DNA of 64,000 bases. Origin: Anisus vortex. Its lineage: Eukaryota; Mollusca; Gastropoda; Planorbidae. Positions 5,438 through 62,205 of this stretch are shown piece by piece. Made by a program: the position numbers and the translations under genes. The notes below the pieces were generated by a model, which was not told the origin of the DNA, did no database searches, and was given only the letters and a program-made list of their open reading frames with translations. The stretch is taken from assembly GCA_949126835.1 (NCBI GenBank), contig OX421494.1:23272196-23336195 (forward strand), read 5' to 3'. How positions within the stretch are numbered: position 1 is the first letter of the stretch; each line of letters begins with the position of its first letter.

Positions 5438-6178
5438 CCACTAACAATAACTGCAAAACTAGAGAAAACATCAGAGGCGTATGGTATGGAAATCAATGCA
5501 GAAAAGACCAAGGTCATGGCAAATAGAACATTCACAAGTGAAATTCGGGTAAACGGGCAAAAATTCGAAGAGGTCTCCACCTTCAAATATCTAGGGGCCA
5601 TAATATCCGACGAAGGTTCAAAGCCAGAAATTCTTGCCAGAATGGCCCAGACCACCGCAGCGCTGAGCAAACTTAAACACATCTGGCAAAGCAAGAAATT
5701 ATCTCTCAGATCAAAGATTCGACTAATGCGCTCTCTGGCGACGTCGGTCTTCTTGTATGGATGCGAGGCTTGAACACTTACTGCAGACCTACAAAGAAGA
5801 ATCAGTACGCTAGAGATGAGATGTTACCGCAAGATATTGAACATCTCCTATACAGAGCATATCACAAACGAAGTGGTCCGCAATGAAATAGCTGCTGTCA
5901 TCGGCCCATACGAGGACCTTCTCACCTCAATTAAGAAGAAAAAACTGAAATGGAATGGACACGTGGCAAGATCTGGAGGTCTTTCAAAGACTATAATGCA
6001 GGGCACAGTCCAGGGAGGAAGAAAAAGCGGCAGGCAAAAGAAGAGATGGGAAGACAACATCAAGGAGTGGACCGGCCTGTCATTCATCGTCTTCCAAAGG
6101 GCATCACAGGACCGGAACAAATGGCAAGAGATTGTGAACAGTCAACGATGGCGCCCCAACGACCCACCCACGGGTTGA
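5438..6178 (+). pseudogene. RTE-like LINE reverse transcriptase C-terminus, one stop
   Basis: This is the C-terminal third of an RTE-clade endonuclease-reverse transcriptase. The frame starting in register with 5414 contains the post-catalytic motifs FKYLGAIIS, a SVFLYGCE segment and RKILNISY, then KLKWNGHVARS and KRWEDNIKEWTGL. An in-frame TGA at 5771-5773 sits where the family usually has Trp after GCE. Endonuclease and the catalytic palm motifs are missing, so the copy is 5'-truncated; the true junction is near 5420-5440, and the upstream Met at 5414 is probably not LINE sequence. It ends in a TGA at 6176-6178 followed by a short AT-rich tail. It is dead and unrelated to its neighbours. 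Confidence 0.85.
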
Positions 6179-28330: not shown

Positions 28331-28758
28331 GATGATGATGATGATGATGATTTATATAGCGCGCCTATCCATGGTATGTTAGCATGCTCAGTGCGCTCTG
28401 GTTCCACGTTTCGGCTGTGAATGTGCTATAAAAACAAAACAAAAAACTATAAGCTTAGTTGAAGAGGAAGGTCTTTAAACTTCTCTTGAATGATTCTTTT
28501 TTTTTCAGAATCCATCAATGTCTGAGGCAATTTATTCCATAAATAAGCCGCTGCTGACTCGAAAGAGCGTACACCAAATTATTTCTTTTTATGACCATCC
28601 ACACTGGGAACTTTGAGTAGTGACTGTGATGAAGAGCGCAGCCCCTTAGTGGACACATGCTTGGGAACAAGTTCTTGAAGATATTGAGGGGCCTTCCATA
28701 CAGCTATAGGCAAGTGACAGAATTTTATGGTCAATGCACTTGGTCACAGGGAGCCAGT
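28331..28758 (-). pseudogene. L2-like LINE, C-terminus and 3' tail
   Basis: Reading on the minus strand from 28758, the frame begins in the conserved HWLPV region, passes an early frame break, and then shows RSFESAAAYLWNKLPQTL, the usual C-terminal LINE motif, with one in-frame stop before it. The 3' UTR ends GCGCTATATAAAT followed by (CAT)n at 28331-28352. It is the distal part of the LINE whose body lies at 37435-39732; the LTR element separates them. Confidence 0.85.
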
Positions 28759-30087
28759 TGTTATGAAACGGAGATTCATAATAATTACCTCTTTAAAATT
28801 CTAGTATTAATAATTGCGAATCGCGAATCTAACGTTGGGAGAATAAATATTACTAAACATTTACACCGGAAGAGACGCTATTTTAAGAATCTTCTAGAAG
28901 CATTTTAATTCGATTTGTAAAGTCTCGTTAATAATCGATAAGAACGATACAACGTCATTTACCTTAAGTAATCGTGTTGTTTACAAAATATGCTTAAAAC
29001 AATTACGATACGCCCAAACTGTTAAACTATAAAAGGAACAACCGCGTTCAATCTATCCCTTTTTCGGCCTATCGCCTTTTCCAATACAGTTAGGCGTATG
29101 ACGCTGTCTGTTAATAAATCACTTCGTGCATGTGCTCTGAATTTGCCTTGTTTGCTCAACAACCTCAACCTCAGTATATTAATTCTAAATATCAGGTTTG
29201 GAATGTGTTTCTTATATATTTCAATTTATTATTTGGACAAGGATTCCATACATACACCTATTGAAATGCATGTTAAATGGATCTAAGCCATACTCTTGTT
29301 TTATATCAATTATGGAACTGTAGCCTATTGTACAAATATGTAAATATCAAGAATGGAAAAACAATCCAGTACGTTCAGTATTAAAGTTTAAAAGTATTTA
29401 CAACTGAACTCTTATCTCAGTCATTTCTTTGTGAACTATTTTACATGTGTGGTCTTAGGAACTATAATTACTGATAGTAATCCTATTATATACAAGACAA
29501 GTAAAATATACAACCAACTTGAGCTGATATAAATATTTACCAGGAAACAAGATGAATTACACTTATACACTATTGTTGCATAACAGATGTCAAAAGGATA
29601 TACAACTTTGGGCATACTCATACTCTAGACTATAACAACCATAATAACCACAACAACAGTAATTCAACTCATACTAAGTTCATGAGATAAACATCAACTA
29701 CTTACTAATTCTGTCAGAAGATGAACTGTTAATAAATATTTGAACATTGAAACAACAGCACAATTGAGCTGGAATTCATATTTATTAAGGGGGGCTCGGA
29801 GTCAAAATACAAGGATAACATTCTTAATACAGATTAGTATGTCATCTAAAATAAATATAATGGACAATATAATGAACTGACTTGATCAGGTATAATAAAT
29901 AAATTATAACTCGGCGGACATGAAAGTGTTGGATGACCACTAGTGTTTGCTGAAACAACATCTCATAGCTGATTAGGTAAGCCCATTACTTACATCGTTG
30001 ATGGTCAGTGGTGTTGAATACACGGACAGTAATTACGAGAACGAAATAACTGTTGGTTTCTGTTCGAAGGAATTGTGTCACGTAATA
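28759..30087 (+). repeat. 5' LTR, 1,329 bp
   Basis: It starts TGTTATGAAACGG and ends CGTCACGTAATA-like (GTGTCACGTAATA), i.e. TG...TA rather than the canonical TG...CA. Differences from the 3' LTR were seen at about 29482, 29944 and 29994. A TATA box lies at 29028-29035 and an AATAAA at 29113-29118. A purine run AAGGGGGG occurs near 29787. A 62-codon frame (29098-29286) is present in both LTRs but has no motif. Confidence 0.95.
29028..29035 (+). promoter_or_regulatory. TATA box of the 5' LTR promoter
   Basis: TATAAAAG stands about 270 bp into the LTR. Pyrimidine-rich initiator-like sequence (TCAATCTATCCC) follows 20-30 bp downstream, so transcription probably starts near 29050-29058. The same box is at 36375-36382 in the 3' LTR. 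Confidence 0.65.
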
Positions 30088-30090
30088 AAA

Positions 30091-30108
30091 TGGTTAGCTC
30101 GTTCGTGA
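30091..30108 (+). promoter_or_regulatory. Possible primer binding site
   Basis: TGGTTAGCTCGTTCGTGA begins three bases after the LTR, the normal place for a tRNA-complementary site starting TGG. I could not match its complement to the 3' end of a standard tRNA, so the primer is undetermined. Confidence 0.4.
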
Positions 30109-30392
30109 TCTGTATGATGTATCTGATGTAAGAACTTTTTACAACCGTGTTATACATCTTGATTATACAAGTTAAATTTATCAGAATTTTGCTTGAAGGT
30201 TATGAACAGTATTCAATCTGCATTCAATCTGTATTGATTCATATCTCACAGATTCATAAATTATTTTTGATGTTAAATTGACTGTGATTAATTCACCATT
30301 ATAGTAATTTCAAGGACAATAACTAGTGAAATTTTATGGACTAAGTAAGTGGTAATCTTATCATCATTATTATATTAAATAATATTTTTAAT

Positions 30393-33300
30393 ATGGATAC
30401 AGAAGGTGCCAGTAATCTTACATTGGATCCAACAATTTTTACACTGACTGTTGATCAACTTAGCAGAATGTCTATGTCACAACTAAAAGACATTGCTAAA
30501 TCCTTGAGTATTAATATCACAGAATTAAGACCATCAAAAACTAAAATGATTAAAGAGATAACAGAAGGTTTAAAACAACAAGGTTCAACAATAGAGGAAG
30601 TAACTGCTAATAGTGGAAATGACTCGGAAGATGACTTGAATTTCTCAGATACCCAGAGAATAATGGGATATGCCAACCATGAATTTAATTCAGGTACATT
30701 AAGTGAAGAACTGAGGTTCAAACTTGAACTGAAGAAAATGGAAATAGAAATGGAAAGAGAAGATAGAAGATTGAAAATGGAAATGGAAGAGAAACGAATA
30801 GAATTGGAAAGAGAAAAGATAGCAAGTCTAGAAAGGATTGAAATAGCTAAGTCTCGCACCTCAAATAATTCAACTTCAAGCTCCATAATAGATCCTGAGT
30901 TGTATAAATTTAAAAAGCATATACCAACTCTAGATGACAACTTTGTGGAAGACTTCTTTATGATGTTTGAGCAAAATGCTATTGATTATCAATTCCCGGA
31001 AGGAAAGAAGGCTATTCTTTTACGCTCTGCGTTAAACAAGGGGAAAGCATTAGATGTAGTACTGAGTTTGACACAAGAGGAACTGTACGACTATGAGTTG
31101 ATTAAGAACAGGGTCTTGTTAAGTTTTGCTTTAACTCCGGAAAGGTACAGGAAAGTGTTTAGAGAATCGAAGAAGGAACATGAACAATCGCATGTAGATT
31201 TCTTGAGGCAAAAGAAGAAACATTTCGAAAGATGGGTCAGGTCTAAGAATGTAGACAAGGACTATGAGAAATTGGCAAATCTAATATTAATGGAGGAATT
31301 TAACAACCATGTTAGATCAGATGTCAGGATACACCTAGCAGACCGTAATATTGAACAAGTTGAAGAAGCCGCTGTGAAGGCAGACGAATATTTAGTAATT
31401 CATACCAGCAGTAGATTTTCTACCTTTGATAAAAATAAACAGAAAGATCAGGAATCAAAAATAGATAGGAAACAATCAAATCCAGTTGAGTATAATAAAA
31501 ACAGGCACAAAGATCAGAGCAAAGAAAGTTTAATGAATTCCAAACCCGTTTGTAACCACTGTAAGAAAGTTGGTCATACAAGGGAAAAGTGTTTTCTATT
31601 GAACAAAAATATAGATAAGAAAAACAGTAAGGTTATTCTATCTTATGCAGCAGTGACTGAAAGGAAAAGTGGCAAGAATGTGAGTAAAGAGGTTAAATCA
31701 CAAACAAAGGAACTAGGTAATAGTACAAATGAACTGTCTAGAAACCAGTATCCAAATAAATTGAAGCCAGGAAAAGTTTCCACAGTGACAACCATGGTAT
31801 TCAATAATTCAAATCTGAGTTGTGATAAGAACACTACAGATGAAATATTAGTGAGTGAAAAACCTACCTCTCACAAAGAAAACTTGGACAAAAGTCAAGA
31901 AGCTACTATGAAGCCAAGTAATTGTTTACCTTTCATTAATGAGGGTATAGTGTCATCAAATATAAACGGTGTCACTAAAGAAAAGAGAATAAAGATACTT
32001 CGCGACACAGGAGCTGAGGTCTCTCTCTTATTAAATAACACTGTACCAACGTCACAATTGACTTATACTGGGCAAGATGTTATTATACAAGGTGTGGTCA
32101 GGAAAGATGTAAAATGTCCTCTACATCAAGTTCAATTGAAGAGTGACTACTTCAATGGGACCATTGTTGTGGCTATTTGTAAAACTCTCCCACATGAAAA
32201 TATATCACTCATTTTGGGAAATGATATCGCTGGAAATGTTGTACATTCCATAACCAGTAATCAACAAAACCTTAAGAAAAGTGGATGCATAACTAAGCCA
32301 ATATGTATTGTCACTCGAGGTTCAGCCCAACAACAAACTAAGCCTGATAAAACCGAATTAAAACCAAAATCAGAACCAGAAGTTGACTTGAAGGCTACTT
32401 TTATGGCTGAAATATTGAATGGTTTTTCAGATAAGACTTCAGAAAATGAAATGTCACCAAGACAATTATTGATACAGGAACAGGATAGAGATCAGGGGAT
32501 TGCTAACTTGAAAAGAAAAGCAATATCTGAAGAAGAAGCGGAAAAGAAAGGAGGTGGATACTTCATGAAAGAAGGTATACTAATGCAGAGGTGGAAAAGT
32601 AATCATGACGATTACAAAGACAGTAATCAAATAGTAGTGCCTGAGGTATATCGAAATGATATTCTACGTTTGGCTCATGATACGCCATACGCAGGTCATT
32701 TGGGAGTAAAGAAGACTTCTCAAAGGATTCTCCCATATTTCAATTGGCCTGGAATTCATCGCAATGTTACCCGCTACTGCAAGTCATGTAAAACATGCCA
32801 AATGGTAGGAAAGCCTAACCAGACCATTCCGGCAGCGCCACTGAAACCAATACCAGCCTTTTATGAACCGTTTAGCCATATAATGATAGATTGTGTGGGA
32901 CCCCTACCAAAAACCAAGGCGGGTCACCAATACTTGTTTACTATCATGTGCTCTTTAACCAGATATCCCGAAGCTATACCGTTACGATCAATCAATGCAG
33001 ATAAGATATCTGATTCGTTAATCGAATTTTTCTCCAGGTATGGTCTACCTAAGTCAATACAATCTGACCAAGGTACCAACTTTACCTCCAAGCTATTCAA
33101 CCAAGTTTTGAAGAAATTGAACATTAAGCACGTAACATCGACGGCTTATCACCCGCAAAGTCAAGGTGCCCTAGAGCGTTACCACCAGACTCTAAAGACT
33201 ATGCTCCGTGCATACTGCTTTGAAAACGAAAAAGACTGGGATCGTGGCATACCCTTTGCTCTTTTCGCTACAAGAGAAGCGGTGCAGGAATCACTTGGAT

Positions 33301-34712
33301 ATAGTCCTTTTGAGCTCGTGTTCGGACATTCGGTTCGGGGACCCTTAAGACTATTGCAGGAGACATTCTTAAGTTCTGATGAACCAGTTGGACTAGTGGC
33401 TTATGTGGAAAAATTCACTGATAGAATGTACAATGCTTTTAATCATGTAAAAGTTAATCTTTCACAGGCTCAACAGAAAATGAAGAGTTACTACGATGTC
33501 AAGGCCAAGACCAGATGCTTCCAACCAGGTGACCAAGTTCTCATGCTGACACAATTGGCAGGACAACCCATGAGTGCTAAGTACACAGGACCTTATGAGA
33601 TTTTAGAGAAAATAAGTAATTTAACTTATCTTGTAAAAACTCATGATAGAAGGAAGACACAAAGGTTGTGCCACATCAATATGCTAAAACCATATATTGT
33701 TAGAGATAAACAAACTGATATTAGGCCTATAACTATTGTTAAAACAGTAGAAAAAGAAATGCCAAAATTCAAAAAGCCTATTATAACTAGCAAACTTCAA
33801 AATACTGAAGCTATTAAGAACCTAAATGATAAGTTAGCACACCTAAACCAATGTGAGCGAACTTCTATCAAGGGCTTAGTTGATAACAATATGCAGTTAT
33901 TCAGTGATGTTCCTAACAAAACTAATTTAGTTGCTCATGATATCATTTTGAAGGATAATGCAAAACCTATAAAACAGCATCCTTATAGAGTTAATCCGAT
34001 ACAACTAGAACACATTAGGAAAGAAGTAGATTACATGCTTGAAAATGACCTAATTATTCCTAGTACAAGTGAATGGTCATCACCATGTGTATTGGTTCCA
34101 AAGTCTGATGGTTCCATACGTTTTTGTATAGATTACAGAAAAGTTAATCAGGTCACAAAACAAGATACATATCCTATCCCTAGGATTGATGACCTTATTG
34201 ACAGAGTAAGCAATGCTAAGTATGTAACTAAAATAGATTTGCTCACTGCTTATTTTCAAATACCTATGACTGATAAAGCACAGGAAATATCCACTTTCAT
34301 TACTCCTGATGGGACATATAAATTTAAAGTAATGCCATTCGGGTTATCCAATGCTCCATCAAGTTTTCAAAGGTTGATAAATAGTGTCATATCTGATGTT
34401 CCTCAATGTCATGCTTATCTAGATGATATAGTTGTATATAGTGATAGCTTTAATGAACATCTAAACCAACTAACATTACTATTTCAGAAACTTACCGAAG
34501 CTAAACTCACCATTAACTTGAACAAGTGTACCTTTTGTCGTGCAACCATTGAGTATTTAGGACATATCGTAGGTAGTGGTGCAGTAAAACCAGTAAATGC
34601 AAAGGTAAAGGCTATACAAGATTTTCCTACTCCTAAAACGCGTAAACAGCACGTAGTTATATTGGAATGGCAGGGTATTATAGAAGGTTCTGTAGGGATT
34701 TTTCAATTATAG
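30393..34712 (+). CDS. gag-pol: Gag-Pol polyprotein (Gag, protease, integrase, RT) of the LTR element
   Basis: A 1,439-residue frame from the first ATG after the leader. Residues 26-60 resemble a SAP motif (MSQLKDIAKSLSI, RPSKTKMIKEI). About 103-153 is a charged coiled coil. About 255-335 resembles a SCAN domain / capsid C-terminus (FERWV from 278, LILMEEFNNHV). C387, C390, H395 and C400 form a CX2CX4HX4C zinc knuckle. The protease has DTGAEVSLL from D538 and LILGND near 606. The integrase has H762, H769, C799, C802, then D833, D892 and E928 (35 residues between the last two) and a GPY module at 1066-1068. The reverse transcriptase has D1282 and YLDD at 1342-1345. The last residues (after about 1424) are off-frame: a one-base loss near 34664 shifts the remainder into the frame of 34667-35227. 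Gag and Pol share one frame with no stop between them. Confidence 0.95.
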   Translation: MDTEGASNLTLDPTIFTLTVDQLSRMSMSQLKDIAKSLSINITELRPSKTKMIKEITEGLKQQGSTIEEVTANSGNDSEDDLNFSDTQRIMGYANHEFNSGTLSEELRFKLELKKMEIEMEREDRRLKMEMEEKRIELEREKIASLERIEIAKSRTSNNSTSSSIIDPELYKFKKHIPTLDDNFVEDFFMMFEQNAIDYQFPEGKKAILLRSALNKGKALDVVLSLTQEELYDYELIKNRVLLSFALTPERYRKVFRESKKEHEQSHVDFLRQKKKHFERWVRSKNVDKDYEKLANLILMEEFNNHVRSDVRIHLADRNIEQVEEAAVKADEYLVIHTSSRFSTFDKNKQKDQESKIDRKQSNPVEYNKNRHKDQSKESLMNSKPVCNHCKKVGHTREKCFLLNKNIDKKNSKVILSYAAVTERKSGKNVSKEVKSQTKELGNSTNELSRNQYPNKLKPGKVSTVTTMVFNNSNLSCDKNTTDEILVSEKPTSHKENLDKSQEATMKPSNCLPFINEGIVSSNINGVTKEKRIKILRDTGAEVSLLLNNTVPTSQLTYTGQDVIIQGVVRKDVKCPLHQVQLKSDYFNGTIVVAICKTLPHENISLILGNDIAGNVVHSITSNQQNLKKSGCITKPICIVTRGSAQQQTKPDKTELKPKSEPEVDLKATFMAEILNGFSDKTSENEMSPRQLLIQEQDRDQGIANLKRKAISEEEAEKKGGGYFMKEGILMQRWKSNHDDYKDSNQIVVPEVYRNDILRLAHDTPYAGHLGVKKTSQRILPYFNWPGIHRNVTRYCKSCKTCQMVGKPNQTIPAAPLKPIPAFYEPFSHIMIDCVGPLPKTKAGHQYLFTIMCSLTRYPEAIPLRSINADKISDSLIEFFSRYGLPKSIQSDQGTNFTSKLFNQVLKKLNIKHVTSTAYHPQSQGALERYHQTLKTMLRAYCFENEKDWDRGIPFALFATREAVQESLGYSPFELVFGHSVRGPLRLLQETFLSSDEPVGLVAYVEKFTDRMYNAFNHVKVNLSQAQQKMKSYYDVKAKTRCFQPGDQVLMLTQLAGQPMSAKYTGPYEILEKISNLTYLVKTHDRRKTQRLCHINMLKPYIVRDKQTDIRPITIVKTVEKEMPKFKKPIITSKLQNTEAIKNLNDKLAHLNQCERTSIKGLVDNNMQLFSDVPNKTNLVAHDIILKDNAKPIKQHPYRVNPIQLEHIRKEVDYMLENDLIIPSTSEWSSPCVLVPKSDGSIRFCIDYRKVNQVTKQDTYPIPRIDDLIDRVSNAKYVTKIDLLTAYFQIPMTDKAQEISTFITPDGTYKFKVMPFGLSNAPSSFQRLINSVISDVPQCHAYLDDIVVYSDSFNEHLNQLTLLFQKLTEAKLTINLNKCTFCRATIEYLGHIVGSGAVKPVNAKVKAIQDFPTPKTRKQHVVILEWQGIIEGSVGIFQL

Positions 34713-35227
34713 CTTGTCCATTGACAGATCTTCTAAAAAATCAAACTAAGTTTGTTTGGTCTCAGGAATGTGAACATGCTTTTATGGAAATAAAAGATCT
34801 TTTGACTAAGGCACCAGTATTAGTTTCACCCAACTATACTAAACCTTTTAAAATAATGGTAGATGCATGTAAACAGGGAATGTGGGCAGTAATTTCACAA
34901 GTAGGAGATGATTTATTGGAACACCCAATTAGCTTTTGTTCTAAGAAGTTCCTTCCATATCAGGTTAACTACAGTTGTATAGAACAGGAATTGCTAGGCC
35001 TTATCTTATCTCTGAAACATTTTGACTATTACATCCATGGTTCACAATTTCCAATTGACATTTATACAGACCATAATCCATTAGTGTTTCTCTCAAAGAT
35101 TAACCAAAATCAGAGATTATTGAGATGGAGTTTGTTTTTACAGTCCTATAACCTAAACATAGTACATGTTAAAGGGAAAAATAACATTGTTGCTGACACT
35201 TTGTCACGTGTTATGCCAGAAGACTAG
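34667..35227 (+). CDS. pol: RT thumb and RNase H, end of the LTR element Pol
   Basis: This 186-residue frame continues the preceding polyprotein in the -1 register. It starts in the AGYYRRF motif at the RT thumb/connection and carries an RNase H domain with candidate catalytic residues in MVDACKQG, IEQELLGL, YTDHNPL and VADTLSR. It stops directly after RNase H; no integrase follows, confirming the unusual gene order. The Met at 34667 is unlikely to be a real start. The break could be a mutation, an assembly error in a G run or, less likely, a programmed shift; no canonical slippery heptamer was seen. Confidence 0.9.
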   Translation: MAGYYRRFCRDFSIIACPLTDLLKNQTKFVWSQECEHAFMEIKDLLTKAPVLVSPNYTKPFKIMVDACKQGMWAVISQVGDDLLEHPISFCSKKFLPYQVNYSCIEQELLGLILSLKHFDYYIHGSQFPIDIYTDHNPLVFLSKINQNQRLLRWSLFLQSYNLNIVHVKGKNNIVADTLSRVMPED

Positions 35228-36105
35228 AATAAATACTAACCTATAGTATTTTAACCTATTGTTATATTACATAACTGATGTAACTTTATCCTATGCTGTA
35301 CTAATAGCTAAATAGATTATAGAAAACTATTATGTAATACAATACTTGCTTTATTTCATAAGAATAACTATGAATCTTGAATACTTAGTTATATTACAAT
35401 GTACATTAAAATATTGTATTGATAATAAGATACTTCTTCTTGAGTAAGAATCAGAAAACTTTAGTTTATTGTTATTGAAGAGATTTAAAATTGATGATTT
35501 GAAATATTAATTTCAATCACATTATAAATTGTATGCCATAGATATACATTGTATGTTATAATTAATTATGCTATGCTATATTACTCATTTGTACCATGCA
35601 TATTTCTTTATTGATTAAGTAATGATAATCATACTAACTTTAAAGATATAGTGAAATAATTTTTTTTTGTGTTATTAATATTATACTATTATTCAACAGA
35701 TAATGACATTTGCAGTACCTAGAGTTACAGGAAATGTACATTATATTCTGAACAGACAACCATAGTGCTAATGTAAAGGTTTGAATTGAAAGTGCAGACA
35801 TTCCACATGCACACACACAAACTTAAATTCACACTATTAGTTGCTTGATTGATTTATATTATTAATTCTTAATTGAGTTAAATTGATTTTTAAATTTTTG
35901 CCTATTGAATTATTTTGACTATTGAATCAATTTTGTTTATGTAAAGATTGTAAAAGGATGATTCAGAGTACAAGAGCAAAACAAATTTTTCTTATTAAAT
36001 TTTAACTTAAATAGTTAAAATAGATTTTTCTTGGATGTTTAAAAGAAATTCCACACATAACTATTATCTAGTGAGGAATTGTCTTTTCTTATTGGTTCGG
36101 GCGAC
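35228..36105 (+). other. Non-coding 3' region of the LTR element
   Basis: 878 bp of very AT-rich DNA without a frame, so no envelope or accessory gene. The bases just before the 3' LTR (TTGGTTCGGGCGAC) do not form a polypurine tract, which is unusual for this class. Confidence 0.7.
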
Positions 36106-37434
36106 TGTTATGAAACGGAGATTCATAATAATTACCTCTTTAAAATTCTAGTATTAATAATTGCGAATCGCGAATCTAACGTTGGGAGAATAAATATTAC
36201 TAAACATTTACACCGGAAGAGACGCTATTTTAAGAATCTTCTAGAAGCATTTTAATTCGATTTGTAAAGTCTCGTTAATAATCGATAAGAACGATACAAC
36301 GTCATTTACCTTAAGTAATCGTGTTGTTTACAAAATATGCTTAAAACAATTACGATACGCCCAAACTGTTAAACTATAAAAGGAACAACCGCGTTCAATC
36401 TATCCCTTTTTCGGCCTATCGCCTTTTCCAATACAGTTAGGCGTATGACGCTGTCTGTTAATAAATCACTTCGTGCATGTGCTCTGAATTTGCCTTGTTT
36501 GCTCAACAACCTCAACCTCAGTATATTAATTCTAAATATCAGGTTTGGAATGTGTTTCTTATATATTTCAATTTATTATTTGGACAAGGATTCCATACAT
36601 ACACCTATTGAAATGCATGTTAAATGGATCTAAGCCATACTCTTGTTTTATATCAATTATGGAACTGTAGCCTATTGTACAAATATGTAAATATCAAGAA
36701 TGGAAAAACAATCCAGTACGTTCAGTATTAAAGTTTAAAAGTATTTACAACTGAACTCTTATCTCAGTCATTTCTTTGTGAACTATTTTACATGTGTGGT
36801 CTTAGGAACTATAATTACTGATAGTAATCATATTATATACAAGACAAGTAAAATATACAACCAACTTGAGCTGATATAAATATTTACCAGGAAACAAGAT
36901 GAATTACACTTATACACTATTGTTGCATAACAGATGTCAAAAGGATATACAACTTTGGGCATACTCATACTCTAGACTATAACAACCATAATAACCACAA
37001 CAACAGTAATTCAACTCATACTAAGTTCATGAGATAAACATCAACTACTTACTAATTCTGTCAGAAGATGAACTGTTAATAAATATTTGAACATTGAAAC
37101 AACAGCACAATTGAGCTGGAATTCATATTTATTAAGGGGGGCTCGGAGTCAAAATACAAGGATAACATTCTTAATACAGATTAGTATGTCATCTAAAATA
37201 AATATAATGGACAATATAATGAACTGACTTGATCAGGTATAATAAATAAATTATAACTCGGCGGACATGAAAGTGTTGGATGACCACTAGTGCTTGCTGA
37301 AACAACATCTCATAGCTGATTAGGTAAGCCCATTACTTACTTCGTTGATGGTCAGTGGTGTTGAATACACGGACAGTAATTACGAGAACGAAATAACTGT
37401 TGGTTTCTGTTCGAAGGAATTGTGTCACGTAATA
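36106..37434 (+). repeat. 3' LTR, 1,329 bp
   Basis: Near-identical to 28759-30087 at a constant offset of 7,347 bp. It is followed directly by the target duplication CAGT at 37435-37438. Confidence 0.95.
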
Positions 37435-39732
37435 CAGTGGAGATCTTTAAGAACTGGGGTTATGTAATCCGACTTCTTAATCCTTGATACAATGCGTGCC
37501 GCAGTGTTTTGTATTTCTGGAGTCTCTGAAGTTGGTTCTGGGGCAGACTTCACAGACAGCTATTACAATAATCCAGCTTTGATTGAATTAGAGAGACTGC
37601 TACGGCATTAGCTGTTCTCTTATTAAGTTGAGGACGCAGCTGACCCAGGGCGCGTAGATGAAAGAAACAAGCCCTTACCACAGTACCAATGTGCGGAACC
37701 ATTGTAAGCTTATTGTCAATAAAAAAAAACAAGGTCTCTAACAGTGTTGGACAAGGGGATATCCGAGACACCAACTTTGATTGATTCAATATCGACCTTT
37801 CTAAGACTGGTGTCAGAACCACACAGAATTGCCTCTGTCTTTTCATCATTTAATTTGAGTCTGTTTGCTGCCATCCATGATTTTACTGTAAGACAGCAGT
37901 CTTCCAAAGCCCGAATAGCATCGCCGCAAGCAGAAGGAACAGGCTTGAAGCTCTTGTAGAGTTCTGTGTCGTCAGCAAATGTTTTCCGGGAAATTCCATG
38001 ATTTTCAACAATTCTGCCAAGCTGACTAGTGTACAAAGAGAACAGGATAGGCCCTAAAACTGAGCCCCGCGGTACTCCACAGGTAAGAGGCGTGTCCCGT
38101 GAAGAGGCCTGATTAACAACAACACGCTGAGTTCTGTCCTCCAGATAGGAATTAAACCAATGAGGTGCAGTTCCAGAGATGCCCGCTTCATTTTGAAGCC
38201 TCGACAGAAGAAGCTCATGGTCAATTACATCAAAGGCAGCACTGAGATCCAGCAGGACTAAGAGTGTCAGATCACCTCGGTCAGCACTACAAAGAACATC
38301 ACTCAGGACATGGAGTAAGGCTGTCTCACAGCTGTGCCCAGGTCGATAGGCTGATTGAAACTTATCAAGCAGGTAATGACTGTTAAGATGCTGTACAAGC
38401 TGCTGAGACACAACTCTCTCCAGAAGTTTAGATACATAGGAGAGGTTAGAGACAGGGCGAAAACTCTTGCAATCATTTGGGTCCAAGCCATTTTTCTTAA
38501 GCAGGGGCTTTATGACCGCATCCTTAAAGAGGTGTGGGGCTGTTGCAGATTGAAGGCTACTATTTACAATGCGTACCAATACAGGAAGCAGAACACTCAG
38601 ACAATCCAACACAATCTTGGTTGGAATGGGATCAACAATGGAATAGGTAGGTTTGGATGACAGCTGCTCATGGGAAACTGGAAATAGTTCTTCTAGAGGG
38701 GTGCCTACAAAGACATTTTCCACTGCAGGCAAATCACAACGTTCTCCAAAGATTTGTCTGATTGTTTCAACTTTGTCATTGAATTAGTTGCACAGTGTTG
38801 CTGCAGCTAGCTCGCTGCTCAGGTCAGGCAAAACAAGGGGTGCTGATTTCTTCCCGAGAAGGTCATTCACCACGGAAAACATCTTGCGAGAGTCGGTGCC
38901 AGCAGCCTTTAGAACAGCCTGAACATGCTCAGACTTCGCATGCATGATTTCTTGTGCAAACTTGTTTCTTGCCTTCCGAAACATTTGTTTGTCCACCTCG
39001 CTGCCACTTCTTCTCCAGCGCTTCTCAGCTATACGCCGGGCCAACTTAGCTTTCCGAACTGAGGGGGTAAACCAAAAGGAATCAGGCCTGTCTCTAACAA
39101 ACTTTTCTGTCACTGGGGCGTATGTATCCAACAGAGATGAGAGAGTATGATTGTACAAGAGGACTAGCTGTTCCACATCATCTGGTGGTGACATACTAAC
39201 TTAGACTCAGACAGGTCCTTACGGAAAGAATTAAATCCATCCTCTTTAAATTCCTCGCCTGAATTTTTATCTTTTGAGCAACAGGCTTAATCATATTTAT
39301 AGTTAGCGATACTAGGAAGTGATCTGACAAGAGTAGGTCATCAACAGTCACTGACTGAACAAATATCGCGTTGTCCGATCTTGATATAGCCCAGTCCAAG
39401 ATATGACCATCTCTGTGAGTTGGTTCGACAACATGCTGAACTAAGTCAGCAGAGTCAAACAGCCGTGCAAGCAGACACGTTTGCCTATTGTCTTGAATAT
39501 CCCAGTGAAAATTAAAATCCCCGATGATGAGAAGATTTTTGTTGCTGATGGAGGACACAAGCTTTCCAAAGTCTTCATGAAACATGCTATCCTTCAGTTT
39601 ATTTGTGGCAGAAGGCGGTGGTGAGTAGAGAGCAACAGTTCGCACCGTGAGTTTGCCGTGGGAAATTAGCCTTACTATAATAGAGGATCGGTGTATCACA
39701 GCCAACCCCCCACCACTCTGACCAGACGACCG
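37435..39732 (-). pseudogene. L2-like LINE ORF2 remnant (endonuclease and RT)
   Basis: Minus-strand LINE, 5'-truncated at about 39732. The endonuclease C-terminal part (39196-39732) has GDFN at 39511-39522 and a SDH motif near 39320. A linker follows (38784-39194). The RT (down to 37716) shows SNLSYVSKLLERVV, FQSAYRPGHSCETALL, LLDLSAAFDVIDH, GVPRGSVLGPILFSLY and FADD at 37968-37979. Downstream comes SKLDYCNSCL, then a stop. Breaks: a frameshift near 39200, an in-frame TAA near 38784, a frameshift in an A run near 37725 and a stop near 37550. The motif set resembles L2/CR1-group LINEs. The C-terminus continues at 28331-28758 beyond the LTR element. Confidence 0.9.
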
Positions 39733-40020
39733 GACACATTTAGAAAATACCGGACACATTTAGAAAATACCGGACAACTTTAGAAAATACCGGACATCTT
39801 TAGAAAATACCGGACATCTTTAGAAAATACCGGACATCTTTAGAAAATACCAGACAACTTTAGAAAATACCGGACAACTTTAGAAAATACCAGACAACTT
39901 TAGAAAATACCAGACATCTTTAGAAAATACCGGACACATTTAGAAAATACCGGACACATTTAGAAAATACCGGACACATTTAGAAAATACCGGACACATT
40001 TAGAAAATACCGGACAACTA
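39730..40020. repeat. 20-bp minisatellite, about 14 copies
   Basis: Units like CGGACACATTTAGAAAATAC repeat every 20 bp with variants CAACTT, CATCTT and CACATT at one position. A partial unit survives at 28309-28328 beyond the LINE, so the LINE inserted into this array. Confidence 0.95.
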
Positions 40021-40200
40021 TATAAAAAAAACCTGACACCTTCTCTTCCTTCCCCTCCCGGATGTCATGCCCATGGAAAAATGGTGTACTGCAGATTGTT
40101 ATAAATGTCCGGTATTTCTTTTAATTGTGTAATGGACAGTCTGCTTAAATACCGGACTGGTCCGTGCGGTTCAAAACCGCACACCTGGCAACCCGATTCA
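40021..40200. mobile_element. Probable end of the DNA element carrying the 20-bp array
   Basis: The words TCCGGTATTT and AATACCGGAC echo the array unit, and the outer edge holds a short hairpin (GTGCGGTTC/AACCGCAC) followed by TGGCAACCCG near 40187-40196. Ends of the type GGGTTGCCA occur in hAT-like elements. The opposite end was not found near 28.26 kb. Confidence 0.4.
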
Positions 40201-41225
40201 GTGGTAGTTTAGTACAATGTTTACAAATTGAATTCTTTGGTTCTGGTTTGATACAATATTGGAATATTTTAATGGGTGAATAAACAAAGACTCGAGTTTT
40301 CGATAAAGTGCTCAGTGCGAAAAGTAGGAACAATATAAGCACAACAAAAATAGATTTAAAAAAAAAAAAATAAACAAAAAAGGAAGTGTTGTTTATTGAT
40401 TGGAATGGATGAAGATGACTACAGTTGTATGAACTTATGACCTTAATCTTCACTCTACGGCAAAATAAAGGTTTAAATAAAACACGATAAAATAACTAGA
40501 TTCAAGAAACAATTTGATTGACTTTTTTTCTAAACATAGACTTCTATCCCTGGTTTTTGGGGTTTTTTTTTACAGCGGAAAAGTTTAAAATAAAAAAAAA
40601 ATCATTAAAAGTACATGTAGGAAACTAAAAATGGAAATGGTGACAGATAATGTTTACTTTTGTAACCAGTGCTTGAAATAGTTGTAAATATGATAACTTG
40701 TATTGAAGGATATATAAACGTATGTGTTTTAAAATTAAAAAAACACAAATAACACCACATAAACATCTGTGACTGTTTATTTACATCCTAAACTCAGGGG
40801 GGGGGGGGGGGACGTGATCCTAATATCTCAGACTCTAATCTGAGCTAAGTTTCCAATTTCTCAGGAAAAATAAAATTTCGCTTTGGCAAGAACAGCAGCC
40901 AGATCAAAATCTAACGAGAGAGGGAGAAGAGAAAGAGTGAGAGAGAGAGAGAGAGTCAGAGGGAGAGAGAGTCAGAGGGAGAAAGTAAGTGTTGGTTGAT
41001 TCAGGAGCACTATCTCCCAGATGAGAATACAAATAGTGATTAGAACAGAATACAATAGCTACACTAACGGAAAGAAATAGTGATTGGTTTAAGTGTGGGG
41101 CACCATCTAGTTATATATCCATCTGTATAGAAACTATATGCACTTGTAAATAATCAGTGCGCAATTTCCATGAAAATGTGTGTTCATATTAAGCAAAACG
41201 AATGGATCGAGGCAGCGACGACAAT
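40201..41225. other. Stretch with poly-G and GA runs only
   Basis: A G run lies near 40797-40812 and GA-rich DNA near 40915-40985. No gene supported. Confidence 0.5.
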
Positions 41226-41247
41226 AATGGACCAGTCTAATGATAAA

Positions 41248-42358
41248 AAACAACGGGCCGACATAATGACAAAAATAATGGACAGACCTTATGACTAAAA
41301 ATAATGGACAGACCTTATGACTAAAAATAATGGACAGACCTTATGACTAAAAATAATGGACAGACCTTATGACTAAAAATAATGGACAGACCTTATGACT
41401 AAAAATAATAGACAGACCTTATGACTAAAAATAATGGACAGACCTTATGACTAAAAATAATGGACAGACCTTATGACTAAAAATAATGGACAGACCTTAT
41501 GACTAAAAATAATGGACAGACCTTATGACTAAAAATAATGGACAGACCTTATGACTAAAAATAATGGACAGACCTTATGACTAAAAATAATGGACAGACC
41601 TTATGACTAAAAATAATGGACAGACCTTATGACTAAAAATAATGGACAGACCTTATGACTAAAAATAATGGACAGACCTTATGACTAAAAATAATGGACA
41701 GACCTTATGACTAAAAATAATGGACAGACCTTATGACTAAAAATAATGGACAGACCTTATGACTAAAAATAATGGACAGACCTTTTGACAAAAATAATGG
41801 TCAGACCTTATGACTAAAAATAATGGACAGACCTTATGACTCAAAATAATGGACAGACCTTATGACTCAAAATAATGGACAGACCTTATGACTCAAAATA
41901 ATAGACAGACCTTATGACTAAAAATAATGGACAGACCTTATGACTAAAATTAATGGACAGACCTTATGACTAAAAATAATGGACAGACCTTATGACAAAA
42001 ATAATGGACAGACCTTATGATTAAAAATAATGGACATACCTTATGATTAAAAATAATGGACAGACCTTATGACTAAAAATAATGGACAGACCTTATGACT
42101 AAAAATAATGGACAGACCTTATGACTAAAAATAATAGACAGACCTTATGACTAAAAATAATGGACAGACCTTATGACTAAAAATAATGGACATACCTTAT
42201 GACTAAAAATAATGTACAGACCTTATGACTAAAATAACGGACAGACCTAATGACAAAAATAATGGACCGACATTATGACAAAACTAAAAGACCGACCTTG
42301 TGACTAAAAATAATGGACAGACCTTATGACAAAAATAACGGACAGACCACAAATAATG
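41248..42358. repeat. 26-bp minisatellite, about 42 copies
   Basis: Units such as AATGGACAGACCTTATGACT plus TAAAAA repeat every 26 bp. The first half is nearly identical, while copies from about 41780 on carry substitutions and 1-bp deletions; the last few are the most diverged. Confidence 0.95.
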
Positions 42359-46575: not shown

Positions 46576-48044
46576 CCCCTATCCAGTTTGTCGGCTAATT
46601 TATGTCCTTAAAGACCAAGTGAAGAGCTTTTTATCAAAATTGAGTTAACATTTGATTTTGATAGTAAATAGTGTATTCAGTATCTGAATGTTAAAAAAAA
46701 ACATGTATACAAAATATCAAAGATACATTTTAAGTAATTAGTTCAATATTTGCACTTAAATGTGTGTGTTTTTCGGATGATTACTCCAAATCTCGTAGCC
46801 ATTTGAGATGTTTTTATTTCCGGCAATATAGGAAAGTGACGTAACATAAAGGATTCCGACTAGGAAAAATGAATATTGTCACGTGTTTTGAATCTATTGC
46901 CACATGTTTTGAATCTTTTCCCGGTTCTTATTTTTAACAAAATGGTTAAATATAGATTTATAGCGTCTATTTTTATTTATTTATTTCCCTTGTGATATGT
47001 CACTGCCGTATGAGGCTATTCCAAATCTCGTTCCTTTGAGAAAAACCTCTTCACTTGGTCTTTAAATAGAAACTAACTCCGAAAATTTTTTGCGAAATTT
47101 CTATTAAAGAAAAATTTAAAAATACACTAATGCACCAATTTAAATGAACAGATTTTTTTTCTCGTTCACCCCCTCCCCCCCCTCAACCAAATCAGCTTCT
47201 CCCCGCCATCCCCATCACATACAAGAAAATGTCCAGCTCAATCCTAAAAAACAAAAAAAAAAAAAATTCAACTTGTTGAGTCTAACGCACAAAACATAAT
47301 TGAACAGGTTCGACCAGGTGAGCACAACGTGGGGATCTCGTACGCCTCACAAAGAAAGAAAAGGGGGAGGGGTCACTGTTGGAGATGTAGCGAATTCCTT
47401 GATTCTTTGTGAAACACTGATTGATTTAAACAAAAAATTACAGTATAAATCAAATTTTTTTTAAAATATCAAACTGCTCATTGTAAATCATCTCCTTGAC
47501 TTGTGATTAAAGGGGACAGCACCCTCAACAATTCATTACAACCATAAAACGTGTGAAAACCACTTCAGTCAACTTACTCTCTATCGAGGCTTTGTACTAA
47601 AACATAAAAAAAAAATTCCCACTCATAAATCAATAAATTATAAACAATCCAATACAATAAATCATAAAAACAAGTAAGCTGTTAGTGTATTGTTGTATCA
47701 CTTGTTTGTTTACAATTATTCATCTTCAGGCTAGTGAGTAAAAAACTGAATGAATGGAGTCGGCGATAGGTAACAATCAGGTGAGTTAGAAAGAAAGTTT
47801 TGGCATTTTCCCCAATCCTATACAGCTCCAGTTACCTAGGTAACATTTTCTGATCAACATTTGCCAAGTCTCTGACACTTGAACCGGAAGTTATTTAGTC
47901 GGTGATCAGACGCGGAGCATTTCCCGCCGTAACAATAGTCTAAGAGGAGCCCCCCGGGGTGGGGGGGGGGATGCTAATAATGTTTCTTAACATTTATATT
48001 TCGATAGTGTTCTGCGTTTGTAACAACATGTTCTGAAATAAACT
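46576..48044. other. Stretch with nothing recognised
   Basis: Only poly-A and poly-G/C runs (for example near 47948) stand out. Confidence 0.5.
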
Positions 48045-48535
48045 TCTTGGGTGTTTACTTATGGTAAAACATGTTGATAAGTAAACTTTTTGGGTGTTTA
48101 CTTATGGAAAACATGTTGATAAGTAAACTTTTTGGGTGTTTACTTGTGGTATAACATGTTGATAAGTTAACTTTTTGGTTGTTTACTTATGGAAAACATG
48201 TTGATAAGTAAACTTTTTGGGTGTTTACTTATGGTAAAACATGTTGATAAGTAAACTTTTTGGGTGTTTACTTATGGTAAAACATGTTGATAAGTAAACT
48301 ATTTGGGTGTTTACTTATGGTAAAACATGTTGATAAGTAAACTTTTTGGGTGTTTACTTATGGTAAAACATGTTGATAAGTAAACTTTTTGGGTGTTTAC
48401 TTATGGTAAAACATGTTGATAAGTTAACTTTTTGGGTGTTTACTTATGGAAAACATGTTGATAAGTAAACTTTTTGGGTGTTTACTTATGGTAAAAAATG
48501 GTGAAAAGTAAAGTGTTGGGTGTTTACTTATGTTG
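48045..48535. repeat. 43-bp hairpin-forming minisatellite, about 11 copies
   Basis: Each unit contains TAAGTAAAC, a nine-base T/G spacer, then GTTTACTTA, a perfect 9-bp inverted repeat. Copies vary between 41 and 43 bp, with changes mainly between the hairpins. Confidence 0.95.
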
Positions 48536-54664: not shown

Positions 54665-55445
54665 CTACCCAGCCATACATGTAGCTAGTTATGAAAAGAG
54701 ATTATCCAGCCATACATGTAGCTAGTTATGAAAAGAGATTATCCAGCCATACATGTAGCTAGTTATGAAAAGAGATTATCCAGCCATACATGTAGCTAGT
54801 TATGAAAAGAGATTATCCAGCCATACATGTAGCTAGTTATGAAAAGAGATTATCCAGCCATACATGTAGCTAGTTATGAAAAGAGATTATCCAGCCATAC
54901 ATGTAGCTAGTTATGAAAAGAGATTATCCAGCCATACATGTAGCTAGTTATGAAAAGAGATTATCCAGCCATACATGTAGCTAGTTATGAAAAGAGATTA
55001 TCCAGCCATACATGTAGCTAGTTATGAAAAGAGATTATCCAGCCATACATGTAGCTAGTTATGAAAAGAGATTATCCAGCCATACATGTAGCTAGTTATG
55101 AAAAGAGATTACACAGCCATACATGTAGCTAGTTATGAAAAGAGATTACCCAGCCATACATGTAGCTAGTTATGAAAAGAGATTATCCAGCCATACATGT
55201 AGCTAGTTATGAAAAGAGATTATCCAGCCATACATGTAGCTAGTTATGAAAAGAGATTATCCAGCCATACATGTAGCTAGTTATGAAAAGAGATTATCCA
55301 GCCATACATGTAGCTAGTTATGAAAAGAGATTATCCAGCCATACATGTAGCTAGTTATGAAAAGAGATTATCCAGCCATACATGTAGCTAGTTATGAAAA
55401 GAAATTATCCAGCCATACATGTAACTAGTTATGAAAGAGACTACC
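54665..55445. repeat. 37-bp minisatellite, about 21 copies
   Basis: Units beginning TATCCAGCCATACATGTAGC recur every 37 bp and are almost identical, except two adjacent copies near 55111-55150 (ACACAG, ACCCAG) and the final copies. Confidence 0.97.
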
Positions 55446-56672
55446 TAGCCATAAGTCTTTCAGAAACGTCACCACGCCCGTCTTCTTAATGAGACCATCA
55501 CTGATTCAACATGAGAGTATCCTTAATGTGTCCATCATTGGCCCAATAATCTCAGACCTGATTCCACCAGCAGCCGTGGTGCCAGACAGGACTGACCACA
55601 AGTAAGCCAAGTTCGCGTGGAACTGGTCTTGTTATAGGTCACGGCCATGTCAACAAGGGGCTAGCACACTTGGGGAGGGGGGGGAAGCTTTCCAATGCAG
55701 CCATAGCTACATCGAAGCTAGTCTTCGCCAGACTTGTAAGTTGAGACAAACGTAGCCAAATGTAACGGTAGCTTGAACCAGACAATTACTTGGATACAGA
55801 CACAAACGTCTTAATATAATACCAGCAGGGCAATTTTACTTCGAAACAATAGTTCTCGGTATTAGTTTTAGTACAACATTTTATTAAAATACATTATTTC
55901 ATAGGCAGACAGAAGGAGGGACAAGGGTTAGACAATCGAATTATTTATTTTATTGCAATACTATGACAGCTTTTATTTGAACATAATATAAATAGACCAG
56001 CGGGACAAATCGTAAAACTAGGTCTGTACATGCTAGTTATGTATGTGCTTTCAGTTGACTTAATACACAATACAAGTTCCTAGTATAATGTAGCATACGT
56101 TTATATACATTAGATGATTGCATTTGTAAGTATATAAGATGTGTATAGTGTGTGAAATAATCATTTGACAATAGTCTAAAGTATTTCTAATGTCAAAATG
56201 AAACCGGAAATACCAGTGATTTTATAATTTAAAATGTCTGATAATATATTTATAGCTAAGATCTATCATAATTCCATTTATTGTATTGCATTATATAGAA
56301 TTAATTTTGTAATCATAAAACTCTCAAAGACCAACTGTTAGACTAATATCTTATATAATGCTAGTCTATATATAGATACTTATTTGAAAACATCTGTATT
56401 TTCGGAACAATTTGAAAACAAGGTATCACATTCTGCGCGATATACTTTTCCATGGCTTCCCCGCTATTAATGGAAATTAGGTGAGAATAACAAGCGCACG
56501 ACCTCTGTATCAACTCATTATTCTTGTCACTTCTATTAAACTTTTGTTTAGCATCAACCCCTCTGTTGTATCCCAGCCTGTAACCGTTGAAGTGCTTCCA
56601 GTTCTGCCTTTGATTATTTCACACACACACTATACACAAAAGTAAAGAAAGGTTACAGAATTGCCTCCTTAC
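55446..56672. other. Stretch downstream of the minus-strand exon
   Basis: No further exon with convincing splice sites was found. A G run occurs near 55675. Confidence 0.4.
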
Positions 56673-60390: not shown

Positions 60391-61007
60391 ACAAAATTTA
60401 AAACTTCTTACAAAATTCCTTCAAGAAAGAGTAAATGGAATTTTGTACAAATAAAAAAATAAATTTAATTATCAATACACAATGATTCAATTTAGAATCT
60501 AAGTAGTGTAAACATAACGAATAACGAATACAAATGTTTCCATTTACACTAGTGAGACATTATAATGTACAACACACGTATTTATAATCTATAGAGGATA
60601 ATTTTTTACTCCATGTTGTCTAAAAAATGAAATCTATTCCAATTAGATATCTGTCTGTTGTTCACATGCCAAGAAAATTATTATTTATTTTTTTTGGCAA
60701 TGTGGCAAGTCTATAGCAGTTCCACTTTCTGTGCGGTGGTTTATTGTAAGAGTGGTGAAAATTTAGATGTGAAAATGTCCATCAATAACCCCAAGGACAT
60801 CTTTGCCTTCAATTACCGAACTGTGAAAATGTCCATCAATAACACCAAGGACATTTAAGGCACGTAATCCGGAGCAAATAGTAGAGCGGACAAATGGCAG
60901 AGTAGACAATGGAGCGGATCATACGGCACAAGTGACATACGAGCATTGAATGGGTTGCCTGAAGAAGCCAGGAAAACCAATAACTTGTCATAAGATAAGA
61001 TCAGCTC
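60391..61007. other. Stretch with a 53-bp duplication and a family T scrap
   Basis: TGTGAAAATGTCCATCAATAA recurs at about 60769 and 60822. ATTGAATGGGTTGCCTGAAG near 60944-60963 is a plus-strand scrap of the family T coding tail. Confidence 0.6.
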
Positions 61008-62205
61008 TAGATAGTCTCTTCTAGATAGTCTCTTCTAAATAGTCTCTTCTGGGTAGTCTCTTCTGGGTAGTCTCTTCTGGGTAGTCTCTTCTGGGTAGTC
61101 TCTTCTGGGTAGTCTCTTCTGGGTAGTCTCTTCTGGGTAGTCTCTTCTGGGTAGTCTCTTCTGGGTAGTCTCTTCTGGGTAGTCTCTTCTGGGTAGTCTC
61201 TTCTGGGTAGTCTCTTCTGGGTAGTCTCTTCTGGGTAGTCTCTTCTGGGTAGTCTCTTCTGGGTAGTCTCTTCTGGGTAGTCTCTTCTGGGTAGTCTCTT
61301 CTGGATAGTCTCTTCTGGATAGTCTCTTCTGGATAGTCTCTTCTGGATAGTCTCTTCTGGATAGTCTCTTCTGGATAGTCTCTTCTGGATAGTCTCTTCT
61401 GGATAGTCTCTTCTGGATAGTCTCTTCTGGATAGTCTCTTCTGGATAGTCTCTTCTGGATAGTCTCTTCTGGATAGTCTCTTCTGGATAGTCTCTTCTGG
61501 ATAGTCTCTTCTGGATAGTCTCTTCTGGATAGTCTCTTCTGGATAGTCTCTTCTGGATAGTCTCTTCTGGATAGTCTCTTCTGGATAGTCTCTTCTGGAT
61601 AGTCTCTTCTGGATAGTCTCTTCTGGATAGTCTCTTCTGGATAGTCTCTTCTGGATAGTCTCTTCTGGATAGTCTCTTCTGGATAGTCTCTTCTGGATAG
61701 TCTCTTCTGGATAGTCTCTTCTGGATAGTCTCTTCTGGATAGTCTCTTCTGGATAGTCTCTTCTGGATAGTCTCTTCTGGATAGTCTCTTCTGGATAGTC
61801 TCTTCTGGATAGTCTCTTCTGGATAGTCTCTTCTGGATAGTCTCTTCTGGATAGTCTCTTCTGGATAGTCTCTTCTGGATAGTCTCTTCTAGATAGTCTC
61901 TTCTGGATAGTCTCTTCTGGATAGTCTCTTCTGGATAGTCTCTTCTGGATAGTCTCTTCTGGATAGTCTCTTCTGGATAGTCTCTTCTGGATAGTCTCTT
62001 CTGGATAGTCTCTTCTGGATAGTCTCTTCTGGATAGTCTCTTCTGGATAGTCTCTTCTGGATAGTCTCTTCTGGATAGTCTCTTCTAGATAGTCTCTTCT
62101 GGATAGTCTCTTCTGGATAGCCTCTTCTGGATAGTCTCTTCTGGATAGCCTCTTCTAGATAGTCTCTTCTAGATAGTCTCATCTAGATATTCTCTTCTAG
62201 ATAGG
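61008..62205. repeat. 14-bp minisatellite, about 85 copies
   Basis: Units TAGTCTCTTCTGGA repeat with hardly any error. The first part (about 61047-61300) has GGGTAG units, the rest GGATAG units, with edge copies reading AGATAG. The 97-codon minus-strand frame is a repeat translation (14-residue period). Confidence 0.97.

Follow-up and report, generated by a model that had tools for sequence, protein, structure and literature searches.

A recently inserted Ty3/Gypsy LTR retrotransposon of the integrase-first (Gmr1) lineage in the gastropod Anisus vortex

A stretch of 64,000 nucleotides from Anisus vortex, here called the window, carries at positions 28,759–37,434 a structurally complete LTR retrotransposon of 8,676 bp, which is almost certainly a recently inserted element of the integrase-first (Gmr1) lineage of Ty3/Gypsy. 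It has in common with the Gmr1 clade a reverse transcriptase and an integrase of the Gypsy type, with the integrase located upstream of the reverse transcriptase. The Gmr1 group is said to have been first described by Goodwin and Poulter, from deuterostomes. This order makes Gmr1 an unusual clade of Gypsy (PMC6238403), and the clade is also described as part of Ty3/Gypsy in PMC2774666. It has been counted among five clades found in several phyla (PMC8556966). Among protostomes, the first record of Gmr1-like elements is given as four elements from crustaceans (PMC3587641), and an annelid family was assigned to Gmr1 by its reverse transcriptase, RNase H, and integrase (PMC8220671). In the table of a mollusc survey, which comprises 21 Gypsy clades, Gmr1 is absent (PMC6238403), and a literature search for Gmr1 in molluscs yielded no description in the titles and passages by which it was judged. 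The initial annotation of the window had expected the element to extend the range of the group. A modest extension to molluscs stands, which is smaller than had been claimed because Gmr1-like elements of crustaceans and an annelid had been published earlier. The window element is a new member of a known clade and not a new kind of element. Its pol order was once known from deuterostomes only, and the element thus represents this Gypsy lineage in a mollusc by a recently inserted copy of exactly known extent.

Boundaries, Long Terminal Repeats, and Insertion

The boundaries of the element are given by a direct repeat of 1,329 bp with a spacing of 7,347 bases and 3 mismatches, which forms the 5' LTR (28,759–30,087, plus strand) and the 3' LTR (36,106–37,434, plus strand). 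The 5' LTR starts with TGTTATG and ends with CACGTAATA. Both LTRs are abutted on their outer side by the same four bases, CAGT, a target-site duplication with its copies at 28,755–28,758 and 37,435–37,438. The copy which had been annotated as near-complete at 30,393–35,227 is part of this larger, structurally complete element. The presence of only three differences between the LTRs points to a recent insertion. In a check for further copies within the window, comparison of the element with itself returned its two LTRs only.

The 5' LTR contains a TATAAA motif at 29,028 and an AATAAA motif at 29,113; if these have the roles which their sequence suggests, a long U5 would be the consequence. A candidate primer-binding site, starting with TGG, is located just inside the 5' LTR (30,091–30,108, plus strand). 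Directly before the 3' LTR no purine-rich tract was found, purines making up 8 of the last 15 bases. The stretch before it (36,045–36,105 of the window) has GGTTCGGGCGAC as its last bases. The missing tract contrasts with the LTRs and the target-site duplication, which indicate a recent and successful insertion.

Coding Capacity

A plus-strand open reading frame at 30,393–34,712 encodes Gag, protease, integrase, and reverse transcriptase in 1,439 amino acids to the stop, the last codons lying past a frame change. It begins with the capsid, the SCAN-like part of which comprises residues 249–334 (31,137–31,394; PF02023), followed by a CCHC zinc knuckle motif visible in the sequence at residues 387–400 (31,551–31,592) and by the protease motif DTGA at residues 538–541 (32,004–32,015). 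The integrase (residues 749–1100; 32,637–33,692), recognized by Pfam, by a match to Ty3, and by its residues, consists of an H2C2 zinc finger (Integrase_H2C2, 749–805, 7.5e-19), a D-D-E core (rve, 825–921, 3.2e-14), and a C-terminal p58_C domain (Integrase_p58_C, 1066–1100, 3.7e-10). The reverse transcriptase domain (residues 1235–1393; 34,095–34,571), also found by Pfam and by a match to Ty3, comes next (RVT_1, 8.6e-36), with YLDD at residue 1342, and pol ends with the RNase H, located from stop to stop at 34,646–35,227, with its open reading frame given as 34,667–35,227 (PF17919, 1.7e-29; PF17917, 3.4e-28). All these features are encoded on the plus strand, and the catalytic motifs of integrase and reverse transcriptase are intact.

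The residues named in the initial annotation, that is, D538 of the DTGA motif, H762, H769, C799, C802, D833, D892, E928, and the YLDD at 1342, are all exactly placed. The order it had read, from the protease motif over integrase and reverse transcriptase to RNase H, is borne out by Pfam, with the exception of the protease, which comes from the DTGA motif. As the open reading frame has no Pfam protease match, the protease call rests on this motif at 538 and on its place between Gag and integrase; a protease profile was drawn from the relatives of the window element and is thus not an independent proof. The GPY module which had been annotated behind the integrase core has its support in the Integrase_p58_C match only.

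All domains which had been named for 30,393–35,227 are present in this span, but it is not a single open reading frame. The RNase H is in another frame than the reverse transcriptase, and three-frame translation places a single frame change near 34.65 kb (34,640–34,667). A relative, P0001, encoded on a contig of 6,847 bases, is 98% identical to the window element in the part searched and contains capsid, protease region, integrase, reverse transcriptase (1155–1423), and RNase H (1443–1615) in one protein of 1,615 amino acids. It differs from the window copy in its unbroken frame from reverse transcriptase to RNase H, and the frame break is therefore a property of this copy or of this assembly. 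Unless the frame change is an assembly error, the window copy is probably no longer autonomous.

From this layout a life cycle may be proposed, in which the element would be transcribed from its LTR, a single Gag-Pol would be made and then cut by the protease of the element, copying would take place within capsids formed by the SCAN-type capsid protein, and the D-D-E integrase would insert the product with a 4-bp stagger.

Domain Order among Related Elements

The order of domains was compared by profiles in two protein listings. As each comprises the top-scoring hits of its search, the listings are biased toward the same order: integrase preceded reverse transcriptase in 119 of the best 120 of 3,640 proteins found, and a second search, with P0012, gave this order for 109 of 119 further proteins listed among 4,123 found. 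P0012 itself is the one remaining protein of the first listing, a tandem gene model with integrase and reverse transcriptase occurring twice. In the second listing the other order was seen in eight arrays of reverse transcriptase, RNase H, and integrase, all from Cordylochernes, while one protein (P0241) had integrase, reverse transcriptase, RNase H, and again integrase, and another showed no reverse transcriptase. A fairer control on the order is a scan of genome_contigs with an alignment of reverse transcriptases, which yielded 16 loci. Here the integrase was last in 11 (including L015, counted so by a short integrase piece only), first in two, and not present on the contig in three. The 16 loci are probably eukaryotic contaminants of prokaryote assemblies.

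L001 and L002 occur on contigs filed as a Heimdallarchaeota MAG and are Gypsy elements with the integrase first, which belong to one subgroup with the window element; they probably represent animal DNA inside a sediment metagenome bin. No LTRs were found on these two contigs, that of L002 showing one 82-bp repeat only. Two scans of viral_contigs for relatives gave 7 and 3 candidate stretches, none of which was confirmed, and among plasmid records reverse transcriptase matches were seen in three.

Trees of Reverse Transcriptase and Integrase

Separate trees were calculated for the two domains. In first quick trees (54 reverse transcriptase and 51 integrase rows) a single branch set the integrase-first elements apart in the case of integrase (support 88) but not in that of reverse transcriptase, where two order changes were needed. 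This split was traced to P0012 and the integrase-last L003, which stood unresolved beside integrase-first rows, and P0012 was then omitted. The final trees contain 59 rows each, labelled by domain order beforehand: 38 of 239 distinct proteins, the window element, L001, L002, 10 Cordylochernes units, 7 integrase-last loci, and Ty3. Besides P0012, the loci L005, L008, L010, L011, L014, L015, and L016 were left out. A single branch now separates 41 integrase-first from 18 integrase-last rows in both trees, with support values of 99/96 for reverse transcriptase and 100/98 for integrase. A constraint which puts the window lineage, consisting of nine rows, among the integrase-last elements is rejected in both trees, with a loss of 64 log-likelihood units for reverse transcriptase (AU p 1.9e-6) and of 90 for integrase (AU p 4.4e-10). 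The nearest integrase-last rows, L003 and in the integrase tree also L004, are on long branches. The agreement of the two trees shows that a changed domain order in a polyprotein can stay stable over long times.

In both trees P0001, P0002, and P0003 are the nearest rows to the window element, and it falls inside a subgroup of 24 rows with support of 100/100. This subgroup also contains rows from Lytechinus, Diadema antillarum, Apostichopus, Amphiura, Glandiceps, Ptychodera, and Pinctada. Newts, frogs, a turtle, an alligator, a fish, and amphioxus are found outside of it, as are some echinoderm rows (Holothuria, Diadema setosum) and P0333, which by the prefix of its name (Em0001g1970a) is presumably from the sponge Ephydatia muelleri. 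Within the Gmr1 clade the window element is distinguished by its mollusc host and by its place in a subgroup of invertebrate elements from which the vertebrate rows are separate. Proteins with the integrase-first order from another mollusc, Pinctada imbricata (P0079, P0097, P0101, and P0107), were already present in databases; they share the order and the SCAN match with the window element and are about 59% identical to it in integrase and about 54–55% in reverse transcriptase. They branch elsewhere in the 24-row subgroup and are not its nearest relatives.

The Gmr1 assignment made in the initial annotation is supported by these trees, which place reverse transcriptase and integrase separately inside one integrase-first group. 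Judged from its sequence, the window element would belong to Gmr1 by the integrase-first order, by its SCAN-type capsid, and by the deuterostome members of its group, in trees from which the Gmr1 element of Atlantic cod itself is absent.

The SCAN-Type Capsid

The SCAN family of Pfam (PF02023, cut-off 27 bits) matches the whole open reading frame with 33.7 bits and the capsid piece with 38.1 bits, and it matched above the cut-off in all ten capsid pieces compared, which were from mollusc-type, echinoderm, amphioxus, frog, and fish elements. With the single capsid sequence no match to solved structures was obtained. A profile of the ten rows matched the solved SCAN domains of ZNF24 (3lhr, 1.7e-12), ZNF42, ZNF174, PEG3, and ZSCAN10. 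These are five of 25 structure rows, the others being one kinesin and 19 ubiquitin chains, which were set aside as their E-values add up weak repeated matches, of which none would pass by itself. In the precomputed Pfam lists none of the eight Cordylochernes arrays has a SCAN capsid.

A SCAN-type capsid as in the window element has been reported for Gmr1-like elements. One paper states the resemblance of the SCAN domain to the Gmr1-like capsid (PMC4592553), and another passage, on frogs, gives SCAN in over 50% of Gmr elements and only in these (PMC4131045). The shared capsid bears on the origin of the vertebrate SCAN domain. In size, Gmr1–Gmr4 of tetraodontiform fish differ from the window element, with a shorter total length of 6,058–6,465 bp versus 8,676 bp and LTRs of 337–518 bp versus 1,329 bp (PMC11117352).

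Origin of the Integrase-First Order

One rearrangement of pol in the ancestor of the whole group would be the most likely source of the order. That the integrase moved upstream more than once, the invertebrate subgroup of the window element being independent of vertebrate Gmr1, is rather improbable. It would fit the branch of length 0.99 which sets off the 24-row subgroup from the vertebrate rows in both trees, the root of which was not inferred, but all integrase-first rows lie on one side of a well supported branch in each tree, and the capsids of both parts have the SCAN match in common.

It is hardly credible that the window element is a conventional Gypsy element in which a nested or chimeric insertion put the integrase upstream in this copy only. 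Chimeric or tandem gene models of retroelements do exist among the hits, as exemplified by P0012 and the Cordylochernes proteins. The integrase of the window element, however, shares one unbroken open reading frame with everything from capsid to reverse transcriptase, the order is kept in the 98%-identical relative and in more distant ones, and the two trees agree in their nearest neighbours. As each tree unites the integrase-first rows, the integrase is no nested foreigner, and the nested integrase which the initial annotation had considered as a possible objection is refuted, since independent relatives have kept the order and the trees agree.

An identity as a Ty1/Copia element, with the integrase first by ancestry, fits the order alone and can practically be dismissed, as among solved structures Ty3 is the best match of both reverse transcriptase (2e-62) and integrase (1.2e-39, versus 3.4e-5 for 7z0h_W, a chain labelled simply "Integrase", which we take to be Ty1), and as the RNase H and the integrase C-terminal domain are Gypsy-type according to Pfam. 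The grouping with Copia which had been named as a possible refutation was accordingly not seen in this structure search, Copia rows being absent from the trees. Ty3 itself differs from the window element in having the integrase after the reverse transcriptase, the respective positions in 7q5b_A being 1087–1447 and 583–823.

For the preferred reading of a Gypsy element with a single change of order, a wider history can be drawn tentatively, its chances falling a little short of even. The integrase-first pol might have arisen once, with or after the SCAN-type capsid and early in animals, and have been kept across animals, in vertebrates as well as in hemichordates, echinoderms, and molluscs; a sponge would be added if P0333 is from Ephydatia muelleri. 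It would then have at least two old branches, one of vertebrates and amphioxus and one of invertebrates including molluscs, the latter missed or otherwise named in the mollusc survey. If this is true, the capsid ancestral to the vertebrate SCAN domain would have existed long before the vertebrates. Transfer between hosts by a horizontal route is possible. The results also suggest that mollusc Gypsy surveys using reverse transcriptase alone may have overlooked the integrase-first order.

Surroundings of the Element in the Window

No tRNA genes and no Rfam families were found in the window. A plus-strand open reading frame at 5,774–6,178 has no Pfam match; it presumably resembles the end of an RTE-type LINE. 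About 280 bases past the 3' end of the retrotransposon, a broken LINE is located on the minus strand (37,716–39,759), with pieces of reverse transcriptase and endonuclease in several frames. Among the best 120 of 5,596 hits of its fragment at 37,716–38,783 (minus strand), seven have named animal sources, all gastropods (Pomacea canaliculata 4, Patella caerulea 2, Littorina saxatilis 1), with a best named identity of 66% among the matches listed; two further listed matches carry the names of bacterial MAGs. Taken alone, these matches make a gastropod host likely.

Minisatellites are unusually abundant in the window. One with a unit of 14 bp occupies 61,006–62,204 with about 86 copies and 98% matches and is read as a KRLSRRDYPEETIQ repeat in three minus-strand open frames, which are mechanical and not a gene; its Pfam matches, for example, to RecX_HTH1, were judged spurious. 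Other long tandem arrays are located at 41,223–42,348 (26-bp units), 54,669–55,453 (37 bp), 48,020–48,532 (43 bp), and 39,729–40,042 (20 bp).
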